A stretch of 64,000 bases of DNA from Gamsiella multidivaricata (Eukaryota > Mortierellomycota > Mortierellomycetes > Mortierellales > Mortierellaceae): assembly GCF_025024155.1 (NCBI RefSeq), contig NW_026251813.1, positions 1-64,000 of the forward strand. Reading direction: 5' to 3'. Positions 1-53,226 of this stretch are shown piece by piece (position 1 is the stretch's first letter; every line of letters starts with the position of its first letter). The position numbers were made by a program, and so were the translations under genes. Below the pieces are notes generated by a model. That model made no database searches. It had not been told where the DNA came from and saw only the letters and a program-made list of their open reading frames with translations.

Positions 1-699
1 ATCATTTTTTGCTGTCTCGCCTTAGGTTTCTTCCTAATGGCGGGAAACACGATCTCGGTCATATATTTTAGACGTTCAAGCAGTTCTTCCTCGTTCATAA
101 TTCTGCCTTCTTCATTGGTGTGATTATTGAAACCATTTGCTTTGCGCGCGAAGAATAACGAGAATGGAGATGAGTTGTGCAGAATAACCGTTCGCGGTAT
201 TTGCAGACAATTGTACAAAGGGAACATGTCGATCCCAATGACGATGATCTCCTTTGACTTCTTTGCGAATCATATTGCATGTTGTTTTAACATGATTTTC
301 TGCAACTCCATTTCCCCTTGGATGGTATGGCGTTACCAGACGATGGTCTATATACATCTGTGTGGTCATGATACGGGTAAGCTCGTTGACGAACTCCTTT
401 CCGTTATCAGATTGTAACACGCGAGGGAAGCCAATATCAGTAAAGCGTTTGAACAAAGTCTTTGCGACAGTGTACGAGGATTTATCAGGTAAGGTATCCA
501 ACAGAACAAATCGAGTGCACACATCGACTATAATCAACAAATAGACATTTTTGTCTTCAGACTCTTCAAAAGGGCCTGCAATGTCAATCGCAATGTGTTC
601 ACCAGGTAAATGTGCATGGATTGCCTTCATAGGATGATACCCTTTACGAGCAATGTTCATCCTTTGGCATTCTCGGCATCGCTTTACGAAATTAAGCAA
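1..699 (-). pseudogene. Integrase core and C-terminal part of the minus-strand gypsy element, frameshifted
   Basis: The zinc-finger cysteines (CRECQ), the catalytic-core motifs AIDIAGP and QSDNGKEF, and the glutamate region PRGNGVAENHVK are encoded at about 130-699. This frame differs from the upstream pol frame. Near 110-125 the frame changes again, and the next segment (MNEEELLERLKYMTEIVFPA) continues to position 1. The corresponding part of the plus-strand element has TKEELEKRSEYLTELVFPA, which supports reading it as the same protein. Two frame changes within 600 bp make this a non-functional integrase unless they are sequence errors. Confidence 0.75.
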
Positions 700-3428
700 T
701 CATTGGCCAGATGGGGCCAAGTTTTCCCTTGCTGATGGATTGAATTCACCGTAGCATTTGTACCAAGGTGACCCATGGCATGCGCTTTATACATGGTTTC
801 ATCCCTTTCTTTTTCGGGTACTACTGCTCTTTCTGTTTCCTCATTTTGAAGGGTGTGCATGTACGTAAGAGCTCTTTTCTGCTCCTCTGTGTGGAGTGGT
901 TGCTGTTTCCTCACCGGGAATAGACGCGACAAAGCGTCAGGAAGAATATTAATAATTCCCGGTCGGTAGTGGACGGTAAATGAATAGCTCAAAATGGTAT
1001 CTTGCCATGCTGTCATCATGGAATTAAGATTCTGTTGAGAATGCAAGAACATTAAGGCACGGTGGTCCGTGTACAAATCAAAATGTCTTCCCCACAAATA
1101 GTAATGGAATTTGTTCAGAGCAAACACAATTGCAAGTAATTCCTTTTTCGTGGCGCTGTATTTACGTTCTCTTTCTTGCAAAGAACGAGCCATGAAGGAG
1201 ACATAATTGATGTCTTTTGGATGCTCCTTTCCGCGTGGTAATTGGTGCAATACAGCACCGATACCAACATCTGAAGCATCTGTTGCAACATAGAATGGTT
1301 TGCTGAAGCCAGGGAATGCCAAGATTGGTGCATTCGTCAACATATTTTTTAGAGTATTGAATGATTGCATTTGTGCCTGATTCAGAGTGAATGGTTCGGT
1401 TCGACTACGGAGCGCATCCAAAGGTGCTGCGATGTCGCTGAACAAAGGAATATACTCTCGGAAGAAATTGAACGTGCCAAGATATGACTGAATCTGTTTC
1501 GCTGTTGTTGGCGGCTCCCATTCATTAATGTTTGCGAATTTAGTTGGATCAACACTTTTGCCGTGCAGTCCGATTATGAAGCCCAACAGTGAGATTTGTG
1601 TGCTGTAGAAGTTGCATTTCTCGCGATTGATTATTAATTTGGCTGCATTGAGCCGTTCAATTACAGCTTGCACATGCTCAGCATGTTCTTCTCTGTTCTT
1701 TGAGAATATCACAATGTCATCAATGAAATTACAGACGAATGGAAGATCACCGAGGATCCTCGACATTCCCCTCTGAAAAAGACTGGACAATGGCTTCAGT
1801 CCAAAAGGTGCTTTCTTGAACATGTATTGTTTGCCATTGCGCATAAATGCAGTTAAAGCTTGATCTTCTTCATGAATTGGAAGACGATGGTACGCCTGAG
1901 AGAGATCAATTGTAGTAAATATTGTATGTCCACCAAGACGAGTAATAATATCGTTGATTAATGGTAACGGATAATTGTCATCCGGCAGATGCTTATTCAG
2001 CGGCCTGGGGTCAAGACAGACTCGCCACAGCGTCTTTTTACCATACTCATCTTTTTTAGCAGCTAGTGTTAGCGTATTATTGTGCACGTTGCCAACTGGC
2101 GCCAGCGTGATAACATCATCACGTAGCCATTTTTGAATAGTGTCTTCGAAGATGCTCATTTGTTTTTCTGCAAACGGTCTGGGCCTTCGGAATAGTACAG
2201 TGCCCTCAGGGACAGGTAAATAAACCTTCATTTCAGGTACAGGACAGAAACTCGTTTTCGGTATTTCAGCATTTTGCTTCAGATACTCAGCAATGCGTTC
2301 GAGGAATTTTTGTTTTGCAGTTTGGAATGCCTTTGTCTTTTCTTCTGGAGGCTGCTCACCAGGGATTAATGAAGGTTTGGTGTCTTCCTCAGGTTCGGAG
2401 AGTAGCATCGCATCATCGCCAGGGTTGACGAAACCTGAAATGCTAAAGCCGAATTGATGAAAGAGATCCATTCCTATGATGAATGGGTATGATTGATTGA
2501 TGACCTCCATAGGTGCTGACACAATTCGGGTGCCGTATTGCAATTCTATGTTTTCAGTCTGGCCAATTCGAGGGATGGTTTGGCTCTCATCGGCAAGCGC
2601 GATGACACCCTCAACAGGATTAACTTTTATTCCGTGTTTGAGAGCAATGTCATGCCGAATACAAGTGTCCGTTGCACCTGTATCAAGCAAGGCCTCGTAT
2701 TTTTCATCCTCAAAAGTGACCGTGACAATGATTCTTCTGTCCGCGTGGTCTCTGTTAACATTCAGTTTGGTGAATTCGAATGTATCATCGTCGATTTTGT
2801 TCAACGACGAAATTCGAATTTGATGGTTTAGACATTCATAATCCTCGTTGCTGTTTTTATCAGTCTGTCGTTCTTTTTCGTACATCTCTTCGAGATCAAT
2901 TAATTCAGGGATGTCATTGACATATGGATTGTAAGCGCGATAAGGTGATATTGCAGAGCGTGGCAGTACATCAGGATTGGCTACAGACTGCGCTAAAGCA
3001 GGATTCATTGCGATGCGCGGTTGTTTGTCAAAAATAATTTCGTGCCACGCGGAAGCATTAGTCTGATCGCGTGTCATATGGTTGTTCGCCAACGTGGACA
3101 ACCTTATTTTCTGCATGGGCTCCTCTTTCGTAGCCTCACATTTTGTGCCATCTTTTTTACGGCTATTCCTTTTTCTTTGTTTATTGCCTGAATTGGCATT
3201 GTGTCCATTATCCATAACGGTTGAGATATGTTGCGCGTCAATTTTATTGTGTATTTTACTTGCTCCTAGTTCACTGTCTCCTTCACTTGCGCCCTTGGTT
3301 AGGCTTGTAGGGACCTGAGTCATTGAAGGTAGCAGAGGGCAAGGCTCATTAGATTGATTGCTTATTTGGACAACCGAGATTGTTTGGACAGTATGATTGT
3401 TATCATTCGTTGTGCTCTTACCGGACAA
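684..3428 (-). CDS. Ty3/gypsy Pol: protease, reverse transcriptase, RNase H, start of integrase
   Basis: This long frame of about 914 codons has no ATG at its 5' end and follows the Gag stop directly, so it is probably the second half of a Gag-Pol polyprotein. In order it shows a pepsin-type protease motif (LLDTGATDTC), a reverse transcriptase palm with FIDDIVIFS, the RNase H strand YVATDASDVGIGAVL, and the histidines of the integrase H2C2 zinc finger (HAMGHLG). The frame closes at 684 just before the two zinc-finger cysteines, which lie in another frame. The polymerase part is uninterrupted, so decay looks recent. Expression would need stop readthrough or a reverted stop. Confidence 0.85.
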   Translation of the reverse strand: MSGKSTTNDNNHTVQTISVVQISNQSNEPCPLLPSMTQVPTSLTKGASEGDSELGASKIHNKIDAQHISTVMDNGHNANSGNKQRKRNSRKKDGTKCEATKEEPMQKIRLSTLANNHMTRDQTNASAWHEIIFDKQPRIAMNPALAQSVANPDVLPRSAISPYRAYNPYVNDIPELIDLEEMYEKERQTDKNSNEDYECLNHQIRISSLNKIDDDTFEFTKLNVNRDHADRRIIVTVTFEDEKYEALLDTGATDTCIRHDIALKHGIKVNPVEGVIALADESQTIPRIGQTENIELQYGTRIVSAPMEVINQSYPFIIGMDLFHQFGFSISGFVNPGDDAMLLSEPEEDTKPSLIPGEQPPEEKTKAFQTAKQKFLERIAEYLKQNAEIPKTSFCPVPEMKVYLPVPEGTVLFRRPRPFAEKQMSIFEDTIQKWLRDDVITLAPVGNVHNNTLTLAAKKDEYGKKTLWRVCLDPRPLNKHLPDDNYPLPLINDIITRLGGHTIFTTIDLSQAYHRLPIHEEDQALTAFMRNGKQYMFKKAPFGLKPLSSLFQRGMSRILGDLPFVCNFIDDIVIFSKNREEHAEHVQAVIERLNAAKLIINREKCNFYSTQISLLGFIIGLHGKSVDPTKFANINEWEPPTTAKQIQSYLGTFNFFREYIPLFSDIAAPLDALRSRTEPFTLNQAQMQSFNTLKNMLTNAPILAFPGFSKPFYVATDASDVGIGAVLHQLPRGKEHPKDINYVSFMARSLQERERKYSATKKELLAIVFALNKFHYYLWGRHFDLYTDHRALMFLHSQQNLNSMMTAWQDTILSYSFTVHYRPGIINILPDALSRLFPVRKQQPLHTEEQKRALTYMHTLQNEETERAVVPEKERDETMYKAHAMGHLGTNATVNSIHQQGKTWPHLANDCLIS

Positions 3429-4628
3429 TCAAGGCATGTGCCTGTCTCCGCGGCATTCGGCATCGCTGTGGCCGCGTCGACCACATTTGGAGCACTGCTT
3501 GCGGCCTACAGTCTCATGGGTGGGGTTCATGCCACAGAGCTTGCAGTCAAGCAGCTGACCTGCTCGATTGTTGGGGCCACGGAATGCCTCTTTCGGTTCG
3601 GGCTTCTTGTTCATTGGGGAGAATCGATTCGATCCCCTGCTGCGCCTGTTGCGCGAAGCACCTGTCGAGATACCAGCAGAAGCACCGTTAGCGTCTCTAT
3701 TGATATGCGCTTGCGGGCCGACCAAACCACTAAGAACGCTTGTGAAGTCGTTGATAGAGGTAAAGTCAACTGCGGCTCCCTTCCTGACATGAAGGCGAGT
3801 GACCATGTTGTTGAGAGTATCAGGAGATACGGTGGCACTCAATAATGTGAGAACCATTTCATTGTCATCCTTGACACCATAGATGCGAATGTCTCGAGCA
3901 ATACGCATGGCAAACTGGCGGTAAGTCTCTCTGCTCTCTCGCCCAGTCGCCAACAGTTGTTTTATCTGTTCGATGCGCTCTTGCTCGGTCAATGCAATCT
4001 TAAGAAAGATCGCTTCGCACTCATCCCAGGTCAGCTTCGTCTTTGGTCTTTTTGCAAACTCTTCTTTGAGGGCTTGACTGTGGAAGGAGCTCACAGTGAG
4101 ATACGACAAGTAGCGGCTACATTGATCTTCAAACATGTCATCTCCCACATAGGCGCAGACAATGTGCTTCACCTGGTCCAAGAACGCCCTAGGATCGCTG
4201 TCGTTTTTAAAACGCGGCATATCCTTCGTCACTTTCAACGATTCTTCGAATTTTTTATTCTCTGAAAGGGGCGGAAGGTCATTACCTTGTCTTTTGGTCT
4301 TGGGACCCATCGCATCGTTCAGCGAAGCCCTGTCTTCCATGGACTCAATGAATAAGCGAATTCGCTTTTCAAGCACCGTTAGCTCGTGGATAACCCCTTC
4401 AAGGGCTTGCTCTTTTTCTGCCACACCGCTGTCATCAGGTGCGAGGGCAAGAGCGCGGCTAAGGTCAGCTTTCTTTTCTTTCAGCGACCGGCGGCGCTCG
4501 TTCATCTGAGCCAGGATTTCTTGGTCCGTCGGTGTCGCCTCAGGAGCATTGCCCGATGGCTGACTCTCATTATCGACATCCATCTGCTGGTCATCGAGGG
4601 AGAGGTTGTTGATACCGTCGGTGTTCAT
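3429..4628 (-). CDS. Ty3/gypsy Gag (capsid-nucleocapsid) polyprotein
   Basis: This open frame encodes about 399 residues from the ATG at 4628. The N-terminus is acidic and polar, followed by a probable coiled coil with ERRRSLKEKKADLSR and a central helical retrotransposon-gag-like part. The C-terminus has a zinc knuckle, CSKCGRRGHSDAEC, which fits CX2CX4HX4C exactly. In the family, Gag forms the cytoplasmic particle and the knuckle binds element RNA. The frame ends in TGA at 3429-3431, and pol continues in the same frame on the next codon. The open frame extends upstream to 4754, but the part above 4628 runs through a CA repeat and looks like leader, so the internal ATG is preferred. Confidence 0.8.
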   Translation of the reverse strand: MNTDGINNLSLDDQQMDVDNESQPSGNAPEATPTDQEILAQMNERRRSLKEKKADLSRALALAPDDSGVAEKEQALEGVIHELTVLEKRIRLFIESMEDRASLNDAMGPKTKRQGNDLPPLSENKKFEESLKVTKDMPRFKNDSDPRAFLDQVKHIVCAYVGDDMFEDQCSRYLSYLTVSSFHSQALKEEFAKRPKTKLTWDECEAIFLKIALTEQERIEQIKQLLATGRESRETYRQFAMRIARDIRIYGVKDDNEMVLTLLSATVSPDTLNNMVTRLHVRKGAAVDFTSINDFTSVLSGLVGPQAHINRDANGASAGISTGASRNRRSRGSNRFSPMNKKPEPKEAFRGPNNRAGQLLDCKLCGMNPTHETVGRKQCSKCGRRGHSDAECRGDRHMP

Positions 4629-4645
4629 GTTGTTGTTTTGGGAAT

Positions 4646-4646
<1 letters not shown>

Positions 4647-4672
<26 letters not shown>
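4647..4672. repeat. (GT)13 microsatellite
   Basis: Thirteen uninterrupted GT dinucleotides lie just upstream of the gag start of the minus-strand gypsy element, where they read as CA repeats in the leader. Confidence 0.95.
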
Positions 4673-4677
<5 letters not shown>

Positions 4678-4870
4678 GTATCTTCACTGAAAAAAATGAA
4701 ATATATGGTGGTTTTTGAAGTCAGTGAGAAAGAGATGTGTCTCCAAACACACATCTACACGATATTTATTAATCAGCTCTAGATTAAGTTTCAGAGGTGA
4801 TGGATTTATATAGTAATAGAGTACACTGGACTCGGCTGAATATGCAGCAAGCACCAAGGAGCGTCTCTTA

Positions 4871-13355: not shown

Positions 13356-15347
13356 TTATGGATGGTGAACCGGAATCTCATGGTATTCTCTGTAACAATT
13401 GCGTGTGAGAAGGCAAAGGGGCACATTACAGAACCCACACTTGAACGACGTCGACGTACGTTTCCTATATTCTGGGTCCTTTAGAACTGTGGCCTTGTGT
13501 CGACAAAGGATACAGTTGGGTTTTCTTTCTGCGCTGGTAGGGTAGTGTAGCCCTTTGTTGGTAAGGCGAATGGCGGGGAGTTCTGTTCGATTCTTGGTCA
13601 CATATACTACCTTTTGGGAGCAAGATCGATCCTGTTTTTTCTGGTGGTGTTGACGAGTTGCCTTGACGTTGGGAGTTTGGTTCCTGCTGCCTTCTAACGC
13701 TAGTGCCCATGCCAATTCGATTCGATACTCCCTGTGGGATAGAGTGCCTCCTTGAGCTTTGTAGATACGGTAGGAGTTCACAATGGTTGTATCCAGAATC
13801 CAAAAAAAGAGTGGCATCCATGTCCTGAAAACAGTCAGCTGGGTGTTGTAGTACGATCTGTATTGGTCGCTGAGATCGACACCATTCATTTTATGATTAT
13901 AGTCGTTGATGATGGCGGGGATCTCCAACATAGCGCTATGTTCACCTTTGAAAACCTCACGGACTTTGTTGTAGTTGGAGCTTGTGGTCCGAGGGCAGCG
14001 GCGGAGGCGATGAACACGGGCTTCGGAACCAGTAATCTTGTGAATGGTAGTGAGCATAGGAACAGGGGCATTGTCGACCCATACAACGGCGAGGACAGAG
14101 TTGTCAACAACCACTCCAGAGAGCGTGTCCTACTCATGCTTGGCCTTCTTGTCGACTTTGAGGGAGGCAGGAAACTGTTTGGAGTTGATACGAGCAGTAC
14201 CACAAGCGCCGATTTTGAGGTCGCGCAGATGCTTAAAGAGAGGAACATTGCTGAAAAAGTTGTCCATGTAAATGTTAAATGGGTAGGTTTTGTGAGGTAA
14301 AGACTGGGCAAGCTTGACAACTGCTGCTGAAGTGGCATTCAGACCATCGATGGAAGGCACACCAGTGATAGACATGACACGGGAGTAGTAGAGGAAGGAA
14401 AAAGTGCACCCAGACTCACAAAGAGCATAGATCTTGTAGCCTTCGGGGGTGGGCTTGCACTTCATCTTAACGGTGTGAGCACTACGACCAGAGAAACGGA
14501 CAATCATTTCATCGACGGAGACATCGGTGGAAGGAATGTAAAAGCGACTGAAGTCCTGGGAAAGCTTGGAGGAAAGGGGCTCGACCTTAGAGTACCAGTG
14601 CTCCTCTGGTTCATGGGGTGAAGATATGTGGAGGAAGCGTTTTAATTGCTGGAAGCGGGTAAGGGTCATGAAACAGCTAATGTCGTGCTTGGGAAAACGT
14701 GGTGATGTTGTCCAAAGTTCATGGACGGGGCTATTAGGACAGAAAATACCGAGGTAGATGATGATACTGATGAAGATACGGAACTCGCCAAATGTTGTAT
14801 CCTTCCACACGCGCGAACCCTCGTTCGACCCTGCTCCTTTCAGTGCAGCATAAGCATTGGTGTTGGTGGCAATTTGGTCGAGAACAGAGTCGGAAAAAAA
14901 GAGCGAGAAGATCTGCAGAGGAGGCAAGGCATCATTGAGGAGAAGCTCGGGTGGGAGTTTGGGATGTCCTCCATGAGGTGGTTTGGAGTGCAGAAAGGTG
15001 TTGTCGAAGACAGGTGGATCAGGGAGCCTGGGAGTAACCTTCTTGATAGTTCGGGCAGGGGCTTTCCTTTTGGCGCCTGTTGAGGGACCAACATCTGCAA
15101 CCTCCTCTACCTCCTCTTCCTCCTCCTCTTCCTCGTCCTCTAGACTCTCGGTCAACGTCGTGCGTGGGCGGTGAGTGATCGTGAAAACCATTTCCTCATC
15201 CTCCATCATATTGTTGGTGTCCACCTCGTTCTCTTCTACAGGTTTTGGAGCTTCTTCAACAGGTTCTGGAGCCTCCTCAACAGGTCCTGGAGCCTCTTCA
15301 ACAGGTTCTGGCACCTCCTCCATAATATGACGATGGGCACGGGGCAT
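13356..15347 (-). pseudogene. piggyBac-like transposase with one in-frame stop
   Basis: A single frame runs from the ATG at 15347 to the stop at 13356, about 663 codons, interrupted only by TAG at 14130-14132 (context KKAKHE-stop-DTLSG). After a low-complexity N-terminus of EEAPEPVEEAP repeats comes a DDE_Tnp_1_7-type core. Candidate catalytic aspartates are in TDVSVDEMIVRFSGR, NIYMDNFFSN and NHKMNGVDLSDQYRSYY. A C-terminal Cys-rich finger with CILCRH and CGFCNVPLC follows, as in piggyBac-family proteins. The frame is open to 15455, but the ATG at 15347 fits the family N-terminus better. The protein would act in DNA cut-and-paste at TTAA sites; this copy would be truncated before the last catalytic residue. 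Confidence 0.85.
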
Positions 15348-15649
15348 GGGGGGTTGGGAGGTTAGGCGAAGTAAAAAGTGGGGGACAGTGATTGAGTGAG
15401 TGACAGTTGAATGGATGAAGGGAATCAATGCAATCACTTTTGACGAAGAAAACAAACCGCGGTCGAGCAGTAAACCACCTTTTCCAACGTAATTTTGAGC
15501 GGCGAATCCATTTTTTATGTCACCGAAACAATCGAAGGGATAGGGTTATAGGGGACACCCAAAAGCGGAAAACCTCATGCCTTCCAAGTCCGTGTAAATT
15601 GAATTTTAATAAGAAAATGCAATTGTGTAAAATACTATTATGATTGCCA

Positions 15650-44608: not shown

Positions 44609-46084
44609 ATGTGCATTCTACTCTGGACGCTGCCCGACAGCAACCACCCTCGCTTCAAGTTGTAAAGACCTTTGCTTTTGCTTCTATCTCAGCTCCGTAC
44701 ACTTCCATTTGCATTCCTTCTTTTAGCCATTGCATAACATCTATCTCTTCCTCTTGCTTTCAACAGTGCATTCGCAAGTAACCGCGATGAATTCATGGCC
44801 CGTAAGGCCTCGCGTGCTGCGTTCTGGGACCTGAATTCTATTCTTAAGCGAGCCAGCTTGCCCTCAGAATCATTGGCTGGTTCTCCAGAGGCACCATCTT
44901 TCGGCTTACAGTCGAACGACACCGCAGTCGGCATCCTTTCTGGTCAGGATCTTCAGCCTTCGCAGGCAGAAAACTACACCATTAAAGAGACCGAGATGGA
45001 CGCTGTCACAGAAGAAGAAAGGATCACCATGACCCTCTTGACCAACGATGTACCTGGCACCTGGCTAGGTATTACAACCCACGGCGATTTGGTGGCATTG
45101 ACCAATTATCGAGAGACCATGGCATACATGGCTCAAACCCGGGGACCAAAGCTATCGAGAGGCAAAGTGTGTGGCGAGTACTTGATCACGATGGCGGCTG
45201 CGCACTTTGGCTCGAACTCGGATCTGTCCAAGAATGGCTCTCTAGCTGAGGATCGAGCCGAACAATGGATCAGGAAGCGGGGTGTGGGCTGGGAGGATGA
45301 ATTTGAAGGGTTGAACTTATTGGTGGTACAGAATTCTGGAGACCAGCAATGCGTTGGCGGCAACCGAGAGGGATCCGGTCTATCTATCTTCAAGAAGAAA
45401 CAGAACACTGCGAATGAAAATGAAGCGGCAGCGCGCAACAAGCGAGTGATTTCACCAGGATCTGTTGTCGGTGTGAGCAACTCTGTCTTTTCTCGACCAT
45501 GGACCAAGGTCGAAATTGGTGTGGGGGCTCTGGAGAAAGTCTTGAACGACAGTCTGACATTGTTCGGTACCGGACGCCATGCCTCGTTTCAATCTCAATC
45601 CCGAGTGGATTCACAGCCAACATCTCCAGCAACACCGGGGCCCATCGTGGACGGCCAACCCTTGGACGATGACACCAAGGAATTGGCATGGTTAGTAGTC
45701 GAGATGTTGACACTCCTGCGTGTTAATACCAAACCTTATCCAAAGGAAGGATTGGAGCTTCTGAGCGCCTTGATGGGTCTCCGAGAGCGCGTCTTCATTC
45801 CCAGGATTACAATGGGCAGTGAGTACGGTACGAGGTCCAGCACGGTGGTTCTGTTTGGACGTGATAGTCGGCTTGCGGTGTATGTGGAGAAGATATGGTA
45901 TGGTCCAATTGATGAGACTACGGGCGAGCGGGTCGAGTTTGCAGCCGACAGTGCTGAGGGATTGATATGGTGGCAGGGTTATGTGGGTCAGCCAAAGGAA
46001 GAATGGAAGTGCATCGAGGGGCAGGAACTCGAGAATTTAATCCGCATCGCCAAGGGCGTACAGCAGGTCAAAATGCACAGCTAA
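44609..46084 (+). CDS. TANGO2: TANGO2/NRDE-family protein
   Basis: Two exons (44609-44661, 44767-46084) join in phase to 456 residues. The N-terminus MCILLWTLPDSNHPRFK has the Cys2 typical of the family, and the name-giving NRDE motif lies in FAFASNRDEFMARK. The blocks GTWLGITTHGDLVALTNYRE, NSVFSRPWTKVEIG and SSTVVLFGRDSRLAVYVEK match the conserved core. Human TANGO2 loss disturbs lipid and heme metabolism and Golgi organisation; the biochemical activity is still debated (established knowledge). The central part (about 190-280) is expanded and low complexity compared with animal homologues. The stop lies 119 bp before a 13-bp direct repeat bordering the Fanzor/transposase block. Confidence 0.9.
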
Positions 46085-46327
46085 AATAAACAACTTGGAA
46101 CATTTTCTCTCGACAGAGCAGCGTTGTCCGCATGTCGAAAAGACCAGTGGATCAAAAGTTGTAGGCATTCATCAACAAGGCCCTTTACTATGAGGGACCT
46201 CGTTATTTGACAAAAATTCGGCGTTCTGATTGGCCAGAAGCTTGTGACTGCCGATTATATGTTCTGATTGGTGGCAAAAACTTACTAGGGATAAACGGCA
46301 CCGTAAAATGGGCTTCAAATCATGAAT
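46085..46327. other. Non-coding strip between TANGO2 and the Fanzor gene
   Basis: This holds TTATTTGACAAAA at 46203-46215, one copy of a direct repeat whose other copy is at 53144-53156. It also holds two copies of GTTCTGATTGG about 40 bp apart. On the Fanzor (minus) strand this is the sequence just 3' of the coding region, where guide RNA is encoded in studied Fanzor elements. I see no definite RNA structure by eye. Confidence 0.4.
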
Positions 46328-49300
46328 TTAAAGCGTCGTTATTGTTGATGTTGTTGTTTTGTCGACAAGCTTGGCCCTTTCATAGTCAAGAGGAGCGGGC
46401 CACTGCCCATTGCGGAGAAACTGCAACACAGCGTTGGACATATTCGTGGCAGCGTTGTGGTCCCGGTCGCGCTCCCACTTGCACTCGTCGCAGATTACCG
46501 ACCGGCCCCGGACTCCCATCCGAAAGTGGCACGAACAGCAAAAAATCGACGTCCGGAACTCTGGAATCTTGACCAACTCGATCACCATTGGTGTCTTCTT
46601 GTTCCTTGCCAAGTCCTTAACGAGATCCCGAGTCTAGTAATGCCAGGAGAAGCCAAAATATTAGAATCATTCAATTGCCACTCGCTTCTCTCAGAAAAGT
46701 CTTCAATGCTTGCCTGTCGTATTAAGTTCCTGGTAAACTTACTGCCGCCGTGGCTCTGACCTTTCCAACCACGGAAATCACCATCACCTAGCCCGATCAC
46801 GAGTGGCGACTGCAGAAAGGCATTACGCTTGTCGTCCGGCAGAGTATTCAAATTCAGAAATCCTCGTTCGAAGAGAGATCTGGCGATCTTCTTCCGACGC
46901 CTCGTCAACGACTTGGAATTTAGGAGCGTTTTGCGCTCAATCTCCGGTCGTTTATTTACCTCGTCCATGAGTCGCAGATATGGCGCCCAATCGTATTCTT
47001 TTACATTCGGCAATCCATCGAAAAATGCCATGGAACCCTTGATATCGTCATCAAGATGGTGGAGCACATCCGCGAGATCCTTATCTGATAGTTGCCGATC
47101 GGGGACATGCTTCCGCATCTGTAGGATCGCGGTTGTAGCCTTATCAAGGTCATGCCGCAGGGCCTCTCTATAGTCGTACTTGTCTTGCTTGAACCTAGCG
47201 CCGCCATAAAAGGATCGGAGAGTCGACGCCTTTTTTGCTACATTGACGAGATGGACCTTGACAGCAGACTCGTAGTCCTGTATCGCCTTTTCCACGGCCT
47301 TGGTAATCGGCGTTATTGTATCTTGGCTGCTGCTGGTGATCCCTGAATCACCTTCCATAATAACGTCCGAGTCACCAACAACCAACTTGGCTTCGACGGG
47401 CTTTTGTTGCACGAGCCTATCTTCGATTTCCGTTAACCCCGCATCGATCTTTATACGGCTCTGTTGTTTGCGGTATCTTCGGTCGATATCATCCCGTGGG
47501 CCGCGGGGGATGTTCAGGTTGATATTTTCCTTTTCATAGCTAGAGTGAATAAGGGTAGCAGTGGCGGTACTGGCAATCCCGGGGTCTACACAAAGACTCC
47601 GTATTCCAACCTCGTCGTTTGTATTTCGGAGGAGACTGTCGACCTTCTCTGGCTGTCAAATTTTTTGGATACATACGACCATCCTTGTATCATTGGCACG
47701 GTTGACCAGGGGAAGACTGTGTTGAAGACTGTGTTGGATGTTGGTACTGGGGGTGATATTGATGAAGCTGTTGTGGATTCAACGATTTCAGCATCCGTCA
47801 TCGTGGTTGGAGGCTTTGATCGCCTACCCACCGTCAATTTGTATGCCATGACTCGTAGGTCATGACCGTTGGTCGAAAGGTTGCCAGTAAGTACATACTT
47901 TTGTCGCGGTTGCCCCGGTTTAGATTTGTCGATCTGCTCTTGGTATTTTTCCGGACGTTGAAGACTTTGGCGAATAAGATCCTTGAATTCGAGTTTGCTG
48001 CTTGCGTACCGGGGATCTTTTGCCTCCATTTTCTCCAGAGCTGTTCTTGCTTCTTTGATTGTGCTCACGTCGTCGGACTTGAAGACAACCTTGGTCTTGA
48101 GGCACTTTTGCTGGAGTGCGGATGGTGGATTGGGAGATGAGGAGGAGGAGGCAGGGCCACAGCTGCCATTGGCCCACAGCATGTTGGCTCCTCTACGGTA
48201 GCTCGTATTCTTGCCATTAAGGAAAAGGAAGAAGGACAATCGACCGACCTCGTCCTGTGTGTTCTTTTCAGCAGATGTCTTGGATCCAAAGACATCATCA
48301 AGTATTTTTGCAAGCGAGCATTGCTTTTCCTGCTCGGCACTACTTAATCGGCGTATTTTTTTGGCGATTGGTGTGAGCCTGTTGTTCCTTTGGTCCATTC
48401 TGAAATCTTTCAAAAGGCAGCAGACAAGCTGACGCTCCGTGAAGGAAAAGAAACCGTCCTCATAACCGATTTGTGGTAAGATTTTGATTTGAGCCTTCGC
48501 TGGCAAAATCAGATTCAGGATAAGGTGAATACTGACACAATCGTGCTCCCGCGACCGCCCTGTCGTATCGTCGATAGAGTCCAAAATGGCCTTCCCGTTC
48601 TCAGAAGAGGCCCAAGAGGGATTGTGCATTAATGCCTATAATGAGTAGTCAGAGTAGTGAGGCCAGTGTCCGCGTGCATGATTGAAACGAGATGGCTCTT
48701 ATTAAGATGACTTACCCGCTTCTTAAGTTCCAATGAAAACTTGTAGAGATGGCCTCCTACCATATCGGACAGTGTTCTCGCACACTGGCTCATGAAGGAG
48801 CCTTCACAGAGGTCTCTATCCTTCAGTCGGAATGGTGGTGCCTGGCGTTGCAAGGTGATCTGTAAATACTCCTGAAAAATCTTGTCGGACGCCATTAATG
48901 CAGGTGAACTAGCCTTCTTGAGATCGGAATCGTCACTGTCCCATCTGATTAACCGATTCAAAAGCCGCTGAAAAAATGAATCTCGTTTACCCTTCAATAG
49001 GATATTGTTGAAGTGTTCCATTCTTTTGTCGCGATGCACTCGTCCTCGATCTTCGTCAATTGCTGGGAATGTTCCGAACGTTCTTGCTATGTAGAGATTG
49101 GTCACCAAAAGGCCCTCGCGTAGCAAATTAGTATGGACTCTTGCCATCGTCTGCATGGTCTCGAGGAGATGGTCCAATAAGAGGCTACGGTCCTGGTCAT
49201 TCATGCAAGGGAACGACTCTTTGAGACTGTGAATAAGACACGACTCAATCCGACCAGGCCTCATTGCGCGCATTGGATGCAAAGATGCAACAGCGTCGAC

Positions 49301-49704
49301 CATCAGGTTTGTTGGGTTGATCTTGCGGGGAACAGCGTTCTCGTTCAGTGGTACATCGGCATCACGAGCCTCCCTGGAGCTCTTGGTATATGTAATCTTC
49401 TTGAATGCCCTTTTCTTGGGACGTTCTGCATCGATAGGCTAGTCCTCAGCTTGTTGATCCCCTCGTAATCGCTTCCGTTACCAGAATTGTCGTCAGAGTT
49501 GTTGTCAGAGTTGTTGTCAGAGTTGTCGTCAGAGTTGTTGTCAGAGTTGTCTCCAGACTCATTTCCGTTCATTGTATTCTCTTCAGCTGAGACAGCAAGA
49601 GGAGCAAGGAGGTTCACCACTGCGGCATCATTCGAGATATCTGCATTGTCTGGGAATGTATCATGATCGTCGTCGTCGTCGTGATCTATGAGCACACTAG
49701 CCAT
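46328..49704 (-). pseudogene. Fanzor-type (eukaryotic TnpB homologue) RNA-guided nuclease gene, frameshifted
   Basis: The C-terminal part has the whole OrfB/TnpB signature. RuvC-I lies in LCVDPGIASTATA (Asp codon 47584-47586), RuvC-II in VIELVKIPEFRTS (Glu codon 46559-46561), a four-Cys ribbon in FCCSC and ICDEC, and RuvC-III in RDRDHNAATNM. VIGLGDGDFRGW is also typical. Two introns are supported by frame and conservation: 48636-48715 (GT-AG) and 46634-46713 (GC-AG), each 80 nt. The N-terminus is acidic with SDNNSDDN repeats. Frame changes near 49435 and at about 47600-47680 interrupt the gene. In the family these proteins are nuclear, RNA-guided DNA endonucleases borne on transposons. All catalytic residues remain, so decay is probably recent, or a splice site was missed. 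Confidence 0.8.
49487..49546. repeat. 12-bp coding minisatellite, 5 units
   Basis: Five units of TTGTYGTCAGAG occur in the N-terminal region of the Fanzor gene. On the coding strand they give the SDNNSDDN repeats, and the 12-bp period keeps the frame. A related one-codon-shifted tail continues to about 49560. Confidence 0.85.
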
Positions 49705-49737
49705 GGATCCGGGCCGACCGATGGTCCGATCTTTCAC

Positions 49738-50731
49738 GCTTACAGGCTGCGTGTTTTTGTCCTGACTTGTGAAGGCTGACGTGAAAGCCCTCGGACGGTA
49801 TTTGTGGCCAGTGGTGTATCTTTGAAATCTGTTTTCCGCAGACGAAAGAGAGAGAGAGAGAGAGAGAGATAGTGTGTGTGTGTGGGTGAGGAAAAGATGA
49901 GAAGGAAGAACAAACGTTTAAATTTTAACGGCTAGGGGTTGCTCCATGTTAGGCTTTCCCGCCCCTTTAATGTCGTTGCAGCGGCCTACGGGCCTACATA
50001 TGCCGCACACAGCCACATATCTCTAATTGCACAATCTCTAATTGCATACGCCCTTATTTGCACATGCCCTTTATTTGCACGCCCTCTTCACCTGCACGAC
50101 TGCTCCTTTTTACCACTGCACTATTTTTGTCCAGGCTGCGCCCAAACCCGGCCGGCTCCTGAACGCTCTCCATCTCATCTATACCCCGTTCGCGCTCTCC
50201 ATCTACATTTACCCCTAAGTATTAGTCAGCGCGGCACCGACCTAGGCCCCGCTTCTAGTATAAAAACGCGATGCCTACCATGAAGAATAAAGCGGTTCCG
50301 AACACCCAGAGAAAGACATACTACCTTTTGCGACTTGACTGAAGTTTATTTCACTTGCCCGTTTTCCCTCCTACCCTGACCTCTATCTACCTATCTAGCT
50401 ACCTTACACCCCGCCCATCTACCTTACCCACCTTGCACTTATCTTGCCTACCCCATCCACCCCTTGCCTTCCCTATAAGCCTACCCTATCTTGCCCCGAC
50501 TCCGATTACCCGTAACATCGTTGACAAAAATTAAAATGATTGTGTATCCAAAGCCCGTTGCATCGAAGACCGCCTGTTGCACTTGGCGATGTTCTCTCGT
50601 GTGCCACTCTATGATCTTAACCAGTGGGGGTACCCATCGTCCTTGATTCGGTCTACCCTGTTTTGAATCATTCGTGTCACCAAACACCGATACCCTGTAT
50701 TTATCTTGACTTCGTTGTTATGTAAATGGGC
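49738..50731. other. Non-coding interval between Fanzor and transposase genes
   Basis: It contains a GA microsatellite followed by GT (about 49849-49885). Repeated TAATTGCA/TTTGCACGCCC-like words occur at 50020-50090, and degenerate CTATCTACC/CTTACC pyrimidine repeats at 50370-50480. No protein motif was recognised. It would be internal to a composite Fanzor/transposase element if the two genes belong together. Confidence 0.5.
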
Positions 50732-53008
50732 TTATGATTCGAACATTTGATTTTCTGATATTCTACGGTGTGATTTGTACTGTTTCACTGCTCGCTCTGC
50801 AGCCTCCATTGGCAGTCCCTTCCTGTAAGTGTCTATATATCTAAATGCCTTCCAAGCATACCTTCGTATGGTTTCAATAGGCACCGAGTCCAGAGCCTCA
50901 GGGATGATTGACTGGAGACCTCGGAAGGAATAGTCGCAGTGCTTCCGGGTATAGCGCTTGCTTGCTCCCCAGTACATCTCTATGAAGTTGAGCTCACAAT
51001 GAAATTTGGGATAGAAGACAATACGCTGTCCTTCCTCCCTTGCAATCTCCTCCAGTATCGAGCCCTGAGCAACAAAATCGGGCTACAGTTCTAGAATTCG
51101 TTCTACGCAACAGTCCACTCGATCAGGGTGTTTATCGTCAGCCCTACATCTCGAGCATGTTCTAGGGAGTCCATCAATCCAGAGACCTCGGTCCTTGAGA
51201 ACCTCTTTCATTCCCTTGGGGTTTCCTCTTAACGCCTCGTTCGCGTAATTATCTGGAAAGACCATGGTGTAGTGGGTTCCATCTACAATGGTGTCCCGCA
51301 TGACCGCTTGCTTTCCACCAGACGAAAGGTTCATCCTATTCACCACCAGTGCATCTTTGGCAACACAGTTGTGGTTTGATGAATTATCGAACGCCCAAAG
51401 TCCAATCAGATTCGGGTGGTTCCTCTTGTGTATAGTGATCGCTTTCTTGAACTGCCGAGCCATGTCTTCAGCGGTCCAGTAGCCATCGTGAATTTTCCCT
51501 GGGTTGATGATCTCTCGAGCACGTATCACCTCGCCATTGTCATCGATCGTCTTCAAAGGTCCCTCAAGTTCGGAAAGAAACTCACTGACCATGATGATGG
51601 ACCGACCATGACCTTTCTTGCGCAACGGAAGTTGACCATCTGGATGCCAAAGCATAGAATTTCCTTCGTTCGAGTAGAAAATGCTCTCATCGTGAGTGTA
51701 AAACACTATCGCCTGTTCGCCTGCAGCCTAGAGCAAAGAGAAGTAATTTAGCGGTACGAATTAAATATCCATGAGTTACCTCCTAATCGCAACAAGCACT
51801 TACCAGAGTGGGCTCGATGATCTTTGTTTGATCGTTGGCGTCTACGGTTATCATCCTCTTCTCGTACTTCTCCATTCGTACAAGAAAAATCTCCCGATAC
51901 TCTTTCACGTCAGGTCGCTCATGGCCATCGAAATATAGGCCCTTTTTTGCCTCTGAGTATATCCAGCCCAGCGCATGTAGCCACCGACCTGCTGTTGACT
52001 CGCTGATTGAGAATTCGATGCCATTTGGTGGGAGGAAGACGTTATTGATGTGCCGCCGGAGTATCGATGGCGTGATAGTGTATTTATGGTTCAACAATAT
52101 CCAGGTTCTCAACTCGTTAAAGTTATCGCCCTCGGTTAGTTGGTTCCTGGTTTTGGCATGCTTCCCTCGACGCGACACAGTGATTTCCTCATTGTTCTCC
52201 CACTGAGTAGCCCATATCATGATCCTTCGTGAAAAGTGCACGCCTCTGCCAAAACCTTTCGCCGTAACCAGAGCTGCCTTAGTCTTGCTCACTCCTGGGA
52301 CCAAGCGGCGTAGGTACTGCTGGAGTGCTTGCAAATTAAAGGCCTCGTCACTGAGGGGCGGATATTTCTTGTACTTGTTATCCAAGTAACCTTGAATTTC
52401 CAATACCATCCCTGCATTGCGGCGCACATCTACATTCCCGAAAGGTGATATTACATATATGTTAGTATTAATATATTAATAATTTATATTATAGGCACAC
52501 AGTATCCAGTTATCATACCTGAAGGTTCAAATTCCTGGACAACTCTCTTCCGGCGAGGAGCTGTCAGTGTTGGCACAGTGAACCCAAATGTAGAGAGGGG
52601 AGGGGAGCTTACTGCTGCCCTTTTGAGGACCATCTTTCGGTGGTGCAAGTTTTGCCGAGTGGTTCCATCGTAAGGCTTTGTCGTCTTCACTGAAGCAGCT
52701 GCCAATCGCATACTCGTAAGGAGTTCATCCCATTCCTCGTTATTCCTGAGAGTTCTTCTGACTGCCTGCCAATCCTCGTCATCAGTGTCGTCTTCAGCAG
52801 GTCCATCACTGTCCGATTCCGCGAGAACAGCATTCCATTCCTCAATATCGCGACTTGACTCCTGTATCTCATAGCCCGCTTTCACAGGCACATAAATGAC
52901 GTTCTCCTCCTGCTGTCCTTGGTAGACTGGGTCAAGAATAGGCGGGGGTGGTTTGGGTTTTTGCGCTATTCTTCTTAAATGCTGCGTGAGTTTCTTCACT
53001 CGAGGCAT
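50732..53008 (-). pseudogene. Tc1/mariner-like DDE transposase with one in-frame stop
   Basis: Three exons (53008-52519, 52429-51804, 51727-50732) join in phase to about 703 codons with a single internal TAG at 51083-51085 (context RILEL-stop-PDFVAQ). After an acidic N-terminus come a helix-turn-helix-like DNA-binding segment (TPSILRRHINNVFLPPNGIE) and a DDE core. Asp lies in FYTHDESIFYSNE, Asp in LWAFDNSSNHN, and Glu in [13 protein letters not shown], the spacing expected of IS630/Tc1/mariner relatives (DDE_3-like). The stop removes the region with the last catalytic residue. CAG to TAG would be the simplest change, because the frame otherwise continues cleanly. Superfamily placement is moderately sure, subfamily unknown. 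Confidence 0.75.
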
Positions 53009-53226
53009 TCTAAACTTAGAGGAAAGGAATGCTGACGACGATGGAGTGATGATGAGAATCACGGAAAGGGTCGGTTGAATGGAAAATACACATGGACGCT
53101 CCAACATTAGGACTAAACGTCAATGGTGACTGCTGCGACCCAATTATTTGACAAAATCCAAAGACTGGCCTGTTGAGCCAGGCACGCGTTCTTCTCTTTT
53201 GCCTCACTCATTTCACGACCGATCCC

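Follow-up and report, generated by a model that had tools for sequence, protein, structure and literature searches.

This work concerns a 64,000-nucleotide stretch of DNA from the fungus Gamsiella multidivaricata (contig NW_026251813.1, positions 1 to 64,000; hereafter the window), and within it a decayed Tc1/mariner-like transposon copy that carries a Fanzor nuclease gene. Fanzors are eukaryotic cousins of CRISPR-Cas12. By its encoded motifs, the minus strand from 46328 to 49828 is a Fanzor1-type nuclease gene and, as judged from sister copies in the same genome, it is cargo of the transposon, which has its own transposase. In three of the five sister copies (C134, C28 and C170) the Fanzor is preceded by a region of the FEN1/XPG nuclease family, which is invisible from the window alone and hence was absent from the initial annotation. 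The features at the locus are the following:

46105..53162, minus strand: transposon copy (Tc1/mariner-like) with transposase and Fanzor, its limits being those of homology to C134, C28, C170, C164 and C126
50732..53008, minus strand: DDE transposase gene in pieces, with an ATG at 53008 and open frames ending at 52484, 51783, 51083 and 50732
49840..49893, minus strand: likely deletion scar, a (CA)n(CT)n tract at the place of ~2.1 kb of additional sequence in C134, C28 and C170
48716..49828, minus strand: Fanzor exon 1, comprising an acidic linker and the beginning of the recognition part (open frames 49917-49345 and 49438-48629), with the 5' limit inferred from an AG
48715-48636, minus strand: putative intron 1, 80 nt, GTAAGT..TATAG
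46714..48635, minus strand: Fanzor exon 2, RuvC-I (SLCVDPGIAS) and GDGDF motif
46713-46634, minus strand: putative intron 2, 80 nt, GC-AG type, GCAAGC..ACTAG
46328..46633, minus strand: Fanzor exon 3, alternative RuvC-II Glu, C4 zinc ribbon, RuvC-III Asp and stop, with the PF07282 match
46105..46327, minus strand: 3' noncoding tail, by position the expected place of the Fanzor guide RNA, ending before the terminal inverted repeat

The motifs VDPGIAS, KIPEFRTS, two CxxC pairs and DRDHNAATN all lie on the minus strand. All three RuvC acids are still present, as had been claimed in the initial annotation: the RuvC-I Asp of VDPGIAS (codon 47586-47584), the alternative RuvC-II Glu of KIPEFRTS (46561-46559) and the RuvC-III Asp of DRDHN (46462-46460), with the zinc-ribbon cysteines at 46540-46481. 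Fanzors have two molecular fingerprints (PMC10711439), a DPG in RuvC-I and, six residues ahead of the zinc motif, a Glu. Here the DPG is found, and the Glu is followed by FRTSIF and then by the first zinc Cys, which is exactly that six-residue spacing. In the proposed profile check, the OrfB/Cas12f1-like zinc ribbon PF07282 matched at 40.7 bits (E 2.7e-10), well over its cut-off of 26.3, so that the Fanzor-type identity holds on motifs, spacing and profile alike. The earlier view that separate minus-strand frames line up as one protein is likewise borne out, the joined reading following P0004, one of the relatives fetched for comparison (n = 17 proteins, denoted by P numbers).

The residues and order of the Fanzor signature, D ... 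[TS][TS]xx-C4 zinc finger ... RD, are found in the window protein. Its D-to-TS distance of 317 residues lies above the 125-275 given for the 2013 set, the excess being due to an insertion that is not in P0012 or P0013; this insertion (residues ~736-837 of the joined reading) lies between RuvC-I and RuvC-II, about 100 residues ahead of GLGDGDF in exon 2. The Fanzor fold was found in the predicted model of the relative P0013. The known Fanzor1s SpuFz1, GtFz1 and PpFz1, of which two are fungal, share the DPG, the alternative Glu before the zinc ribbon, the RuvC-III Asp and the fold of that model. In PpFz1 a cyclophilin-binding FRI domain is inserted in RuvC, and the window's family also has a long RuvC insertion, the two being compared by position only. 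A phmmer search with the window protein gave three matches, with no Fanzor among them, and the zinc-ribbon exon alone reached only E 0.21 or worse against solved Fanzors, so that a profile was needed for a match. Carriage by a TA-flanked element with terminal inverted repeats and a DDE-type transposase favours Fanzor1 over Fanzor2; this falls short of proof, since some Fanzor2s are also carried by non-IS607 eukaryotic transposons (PMC10711439).

A DNA search of the fungus's own genome returned eight rows, of which one was the window itself and the remaining seven were spread over five further contigs. The sister copies are about 97% identical, with the Fanzor part near-complete in C134 and C28 and partial in C170, C164 and C126. 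Their ends are 26-bp terminal inverted repeats (TIRs) adjoining TA, which was found at both ends in C134 and C28, at the 5' end in C170 and at the 3' end in C43. The TIRs of C28 agree at 20 of 26 positions, C134 is without part of the 5' repeat, and the window copy stops before both TIRs. Over more than 2 kb, the 5' flanks of C134 and C28 are 98% identical, while the sequences beyond the 3' end differ; the two are therefore not independent insertions, and the pattern may come from segmental duplication or recombination between copies. The transposase matches DDE_3 (PF13358) at E 0.011 in the window and E 0.0018 in the C28 copy. Since both matches score below the curated cut-off, the Tc1/mariner assignment draws on the TA, the repeats and this weak match together. 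An in-frame TAG (51085-51083) interrupts the window transposase and is absent from C134, C28, C170 and C164. The initial annotation had described an adapted eukaryotic copy; with a transposase beside it and ~97% sister copies, it is no free-standing gene and is transposon cargo. Two observations concern the surroundings and make-up of the copy. A TANGO2 gene (PF05742; window 44738-46084, plus strand) stops some 20 bp short of 46105, the edge of the transposon. Some 540 bp at window 49979-50517 occur in the window and C170 copies and are missing from C134 and C28; they may reflect an insertion or a deletion, and the junction shows a 6-bp overlap.

The two putative introns were placed by reading phase and by comparison with relatives. 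For intron 1, the reading joined across it matches P0004 and P0007; for intron 2, the join reads RNLIRQ-TRDLVKDLAR in the window and RNLIRQ-KRDLVKDLAR in P0004, and the donor is the phase-matching partner of a strong acceptor. A GTAAGT near 46741 was rejected as the intron 2 donor for its phase misfit with that acceptor. Spliceosomal introns had been proposed before, together with frame changes near 49435 and at 47600-47680 that were put down to decay or an undetected splice; introns are indeed indicated, at neither of these two places, and both places show decay and no splice. A 41-nt intron at 47676-47636 was rejected because the stretch is coding: C28 and C164 are in frame there, and it is kept as protein in 8/17 relatives (P0001, P0002, P0003, P0004, P0006, P0007, P0008 and P0010). 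It had been removed from the joined reading that served as protein query.

In exon 2, a one-base frameshift near 47650 is common to the window and C134 and is not found in C28 and C164. In exon 1, a second frameshift at ~49460 and an in-frame stop at 49441-49439 are absent from C134, C28 and C170. A search of the same genome for intact relatives had been suggested; it yielded the five sister copies, of which the long ones are themselves broken, C134 by the shared frameshift and one stop and C28 by frameshifts in exons 1 and 2. The ratio of nonsynonymous to synonymous change (dN/dS) was counted with the 41 bases 47676-47636 excluded and the correct frame used on either side. Three long pairs gave dN/dS of 0.40, 0.20 and 0.34 (synonymous excess p 2.5e-3, 1.6e-6 and 9.9e-4, respectively), and the shorter pairs with a value, 13 in all, ranged from 0.40 to 0.89 with few changes each. 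By these counts, the Fanzor coding frames were formerly under selection; enough time has passed for the copies to break, and too little for the signal to be erased. The window copy is, on the reading of its frames, a pseudogene and a dead end, because it has no FEN1/XPG region, both ends are gone, the Fanzor has two frameshifts and a stop, and the transposase has a stop. Repeat-induced mutation was considered as the source of the window stops and set aside: 29 of the 41 private changes are GC to AT, and the CpA signature is not clear. The ATG at 49703 is private to the window copy, C134, C28 and C170 differing there, and the frame homologous to relatives runs on upstream of it.

The 3' tail was examined as the likely site of a guide RNA. 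It folds no better than shuffled sequences (z -0.97 for the 226 nt of the window, -0.67 for the 314 nt of C134), the copies are too alike for covariation to be usable, and an Rfam scan of the window gave only a tRNA at gathering score. If the guide scaffold needs the TIR, the window copy is without a guide of its own.

The upstream region was recognized through P0004, whose N-terminus was found by tblastn upstream of the Fanzor in C134, C28 and C170 (E 2.7e-102 to 4.7e-103). C164 had no match to P0004 residues 1-480. The window holds only the last stretch of this N-terminus, residues 395-477, which align to exon 1. The FEN1/XPG-like region is open for 464 codons in C170 and has two in-frame stops in C134 and in C28; in the window it belongs to the missing 2.1 kb and was probably lost by deletion between two CA/CT repeats.

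Residues 480-969 of the window reading were used in a protein search, which gave 14 relatives. The named ones come from the fungi Entomortierella parvispora, Mortierella claussenii, Entomortierella lignicola, Podila horticola and Dissophora globulifera, of which E. parvispora and D. globulifera are Mortierellaceae; the gene is thus eukaryotic and no bacterial contamination, as first stated. A viral origin was also considered and rejected, alignment A2 having matched 15 stretches in a scan of viral contigs with no relative among them. P0004 (1506 residues) and P0013 (1168 residues) have ~400 or more additional N-terminal residues, and the annotated protein P0013 contains both halves. In P0014 (1211 residues), P0015 (796 residues) and P0016 (763 residues), which start with MGV/MGI and come from short environmental contigs, FEN1-like motifs are followed by Fanzor in one predicted frame; P0014 extends to the DPG and occupies 3633 of 4072 contig bases. 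The two parts are thus predicted to be fused in P0014, P0015 and P0016, and their joining in the window's own family, as we infer it, depends on splicing.

The same arrangement recurs across the genome. At least 109 zinc-ribbon loci were counted, and three FEN1/XPG-like queries, the third being the P0014 N-terminus with 12 matches, merged to 102 places. A same-strand FEN1/XPG-like match lies within 7 kb upstream of 52/109 zinc-ribbon loci (47/109 with the first query alone), where uniform placement would give ~1.0. Conversely, 53/102 FEN1/XPG-like places have a zinc ribbon downstream. Controls gave 5 pairs for same-strand downstream matches and 3 and 2 for the opposite strand. As the copies are related by descent, the 52 pairs are not 52 independent events. 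The two divergent loci L037 and L038, read more fully, have a FEN1-like region and then DPG, in the same order. At the 57 loci without a match, the domain may be missing, truncated or too divergent. A TAG also occurs within many of the genome's other zinc-ribbon matches and may mark the 3' end of an intron nearby.

A sequence profile of the partner region matched 31 PDB entries, all 31 from the FEN1/EXO1/XPG family (best E 3.6e-6), and its predicted fold may be related to theirs, with structure alignments at only ~11-18% identity. Like the FEN1, EXO1 and XPG (RAD2) 5' nucleases, it has an N-terminal MGV/MGI and acidic motifs; unlike them, it is very divergent and, in relatives, joined to a predicted RNA-guided nuclease.

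We consider the following reading probable: the fungal DNA transposon in the window is a broken copy, its Fanzor is preceded in three sister copies and in relatives by a FEN1/XPG-family region, in three relatives within a single predicted frame, and the two would likely act together as RNA-guided cutter and 5'-end processor. In such a system, the guide RNA would be made from the 3' end of the element plus flank. The transposase would move the element out and leave an emptied site, which the Fanzor and its guide would recognize and the RuvC would cut so as to produce 5' ends. Kept at the R-loop, the FEN1/XPG-like domain would trim or resect these 5' ends or cut the R-loop flank, and repair would thereby be biased to copying the element back from the chromatid still carrying it. 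SpuFz1 leaves 5' overhangs (PMC11423790), XPG cuts the 3' flank of R-loops in vitro (PMC7286691), and transposons may be promoted by Fanzor cuts in the sister chromosome (PMC10432273). The stronger form of the idea, that this is a natural RNA-guided cut-and-resect enzyme of Fanzor and a FEN1/EXO1-type 5' nuclease, present in dozens of copies, in which 5' resection at the emptied site forces copy-back, is one we put forward tentatively and as possible, short of likely.

In place of resecting DNA ends, the FEN1/XPG-like domain might mature the guide RNA or, at the R-loop flank, cut the other DNA strand. The in vitro cleavage of R-loop flanks by XPG (PMC7286691) speaks for such a role, as does a weak match of one family member to XRN 5'-3' exonucleases (E 0.012). 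SpuFz1, however, was solved without such a domain and gives 5' overhangs (PMC11423790); it therefore cuts both strands alone, and we rate this second role as somewhat unlikely.

The domain might also no longer be a nuclease and serve as a structural or nucleic-acid-binding addition. In the window's family and in L037, a Gln stands where P0013, P0015, P0016 and P0017 have a Glu; in L038, an Asn replaces one Asp of the acidic set; and the Pfam models stay below cut-off on the partner region, with weak single-sequence scores. The remaining acidic motifs (CDID, HYDG, DSD and NDY) are nevertheless kept in C170, and all of them (DID, HFDG, GEAD, DSD and NDY) in P0013 and P0015, which makes the loss of nuclease function unlikely.

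Alternatively, the FEN1/XPG-like nuclease and the Fanzor could be two neighbouring genes of one transposon, the fused models being exceptions or annotation errors. This would fit C134 and C170, where the two regions are open frames ~400 nt apart, P0004, which is only a predicted gene model, and P0012, a 642-residue Fanzor without the domain. Yet both parts share one predicted frame in P0014, P0015 and P0016, P0013 and P0004 agree across species, and the spacing is tight, with 42/52 pairs at 2.4-3.4 kb; two separate genes are accordingly quite improbable.

The reading of the locus as an ordinary Fanzor1 relic and nothing more fits only the window copy viewed in isolation, with its Fanzor and transposase remains and with Fanzor1 in Tc/mariner elements already known (PMC3627910). 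For the family it is refuted by the extra domain, which lies upstream in three sister copies and at roughly half of the Fanzor loci detected in the genome, and we find it very improbable.

Preferring the coupled cutter and 5'-end processor, we compared it with known systems. The window finding by itself is of a known kind, a dead copy of a Fanzor1 in a Tc/mariner-like element. Among Tc/mariner elements with Fanzor1, PGv-1, PUl-1 and PUl-4 have a transposase and a Fanzor, or a Fanzor with Mariner TIRs and TA flanks, and PGv-1 has a separate GIY-YIG nuclease protein, whereas the partner here is of the FEN1/XPG kind and fused in relatives (PMC3627910); the term XPG is absent from the main text of that paper. 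Some Fanzor1s reach ~800 residues (PMC10711439), compared with which the relatives of 1168 and 1506 residues are longer and carry the FEN1/XPG-like N-terminal part. In the full text of 5.39 million PMC papers, which does not cover subscription papers, supplements or outside preprints, no paper contains both Fanzor and XPG and none both Fanzor and Mortierella, and TnpB occurs together with XPG in the R-loop paper only. Academ transposons carry XPG nucleases, for which none of the papers listed in the literature search was usable. The searched literature gave no record of the present variant, a many-copy Fanzor fused to a FEN1/XPG-family nuclease, and such a record may exist outside it.

A natural FEN1/XPG fusion in divergent families points to a coupled step, the handling of 5' ends or of R-loop flanks. 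A single pair of point mutants would then suffice to test the cut-and-copy idea, and the fusion provides a model from nature for engineering-style joining of nucleases to direct repair.

Elsewhere in the window, a retroelement lies at 687-4754 (minus strand), with reverse transcriptase (PF00078), RNase H (PF17917) and aspartyl protease (PF13975) matches in one 914-codon frame; the frame upstream of it has no Pfam match and may be gag. At 13359-15545 (minus strand), a transposase in two frames, which we take to be piggyBac-like, matches DDE_Tnp_1_7 (PF13843) at E 2.9e-47 and 5.7e-6.
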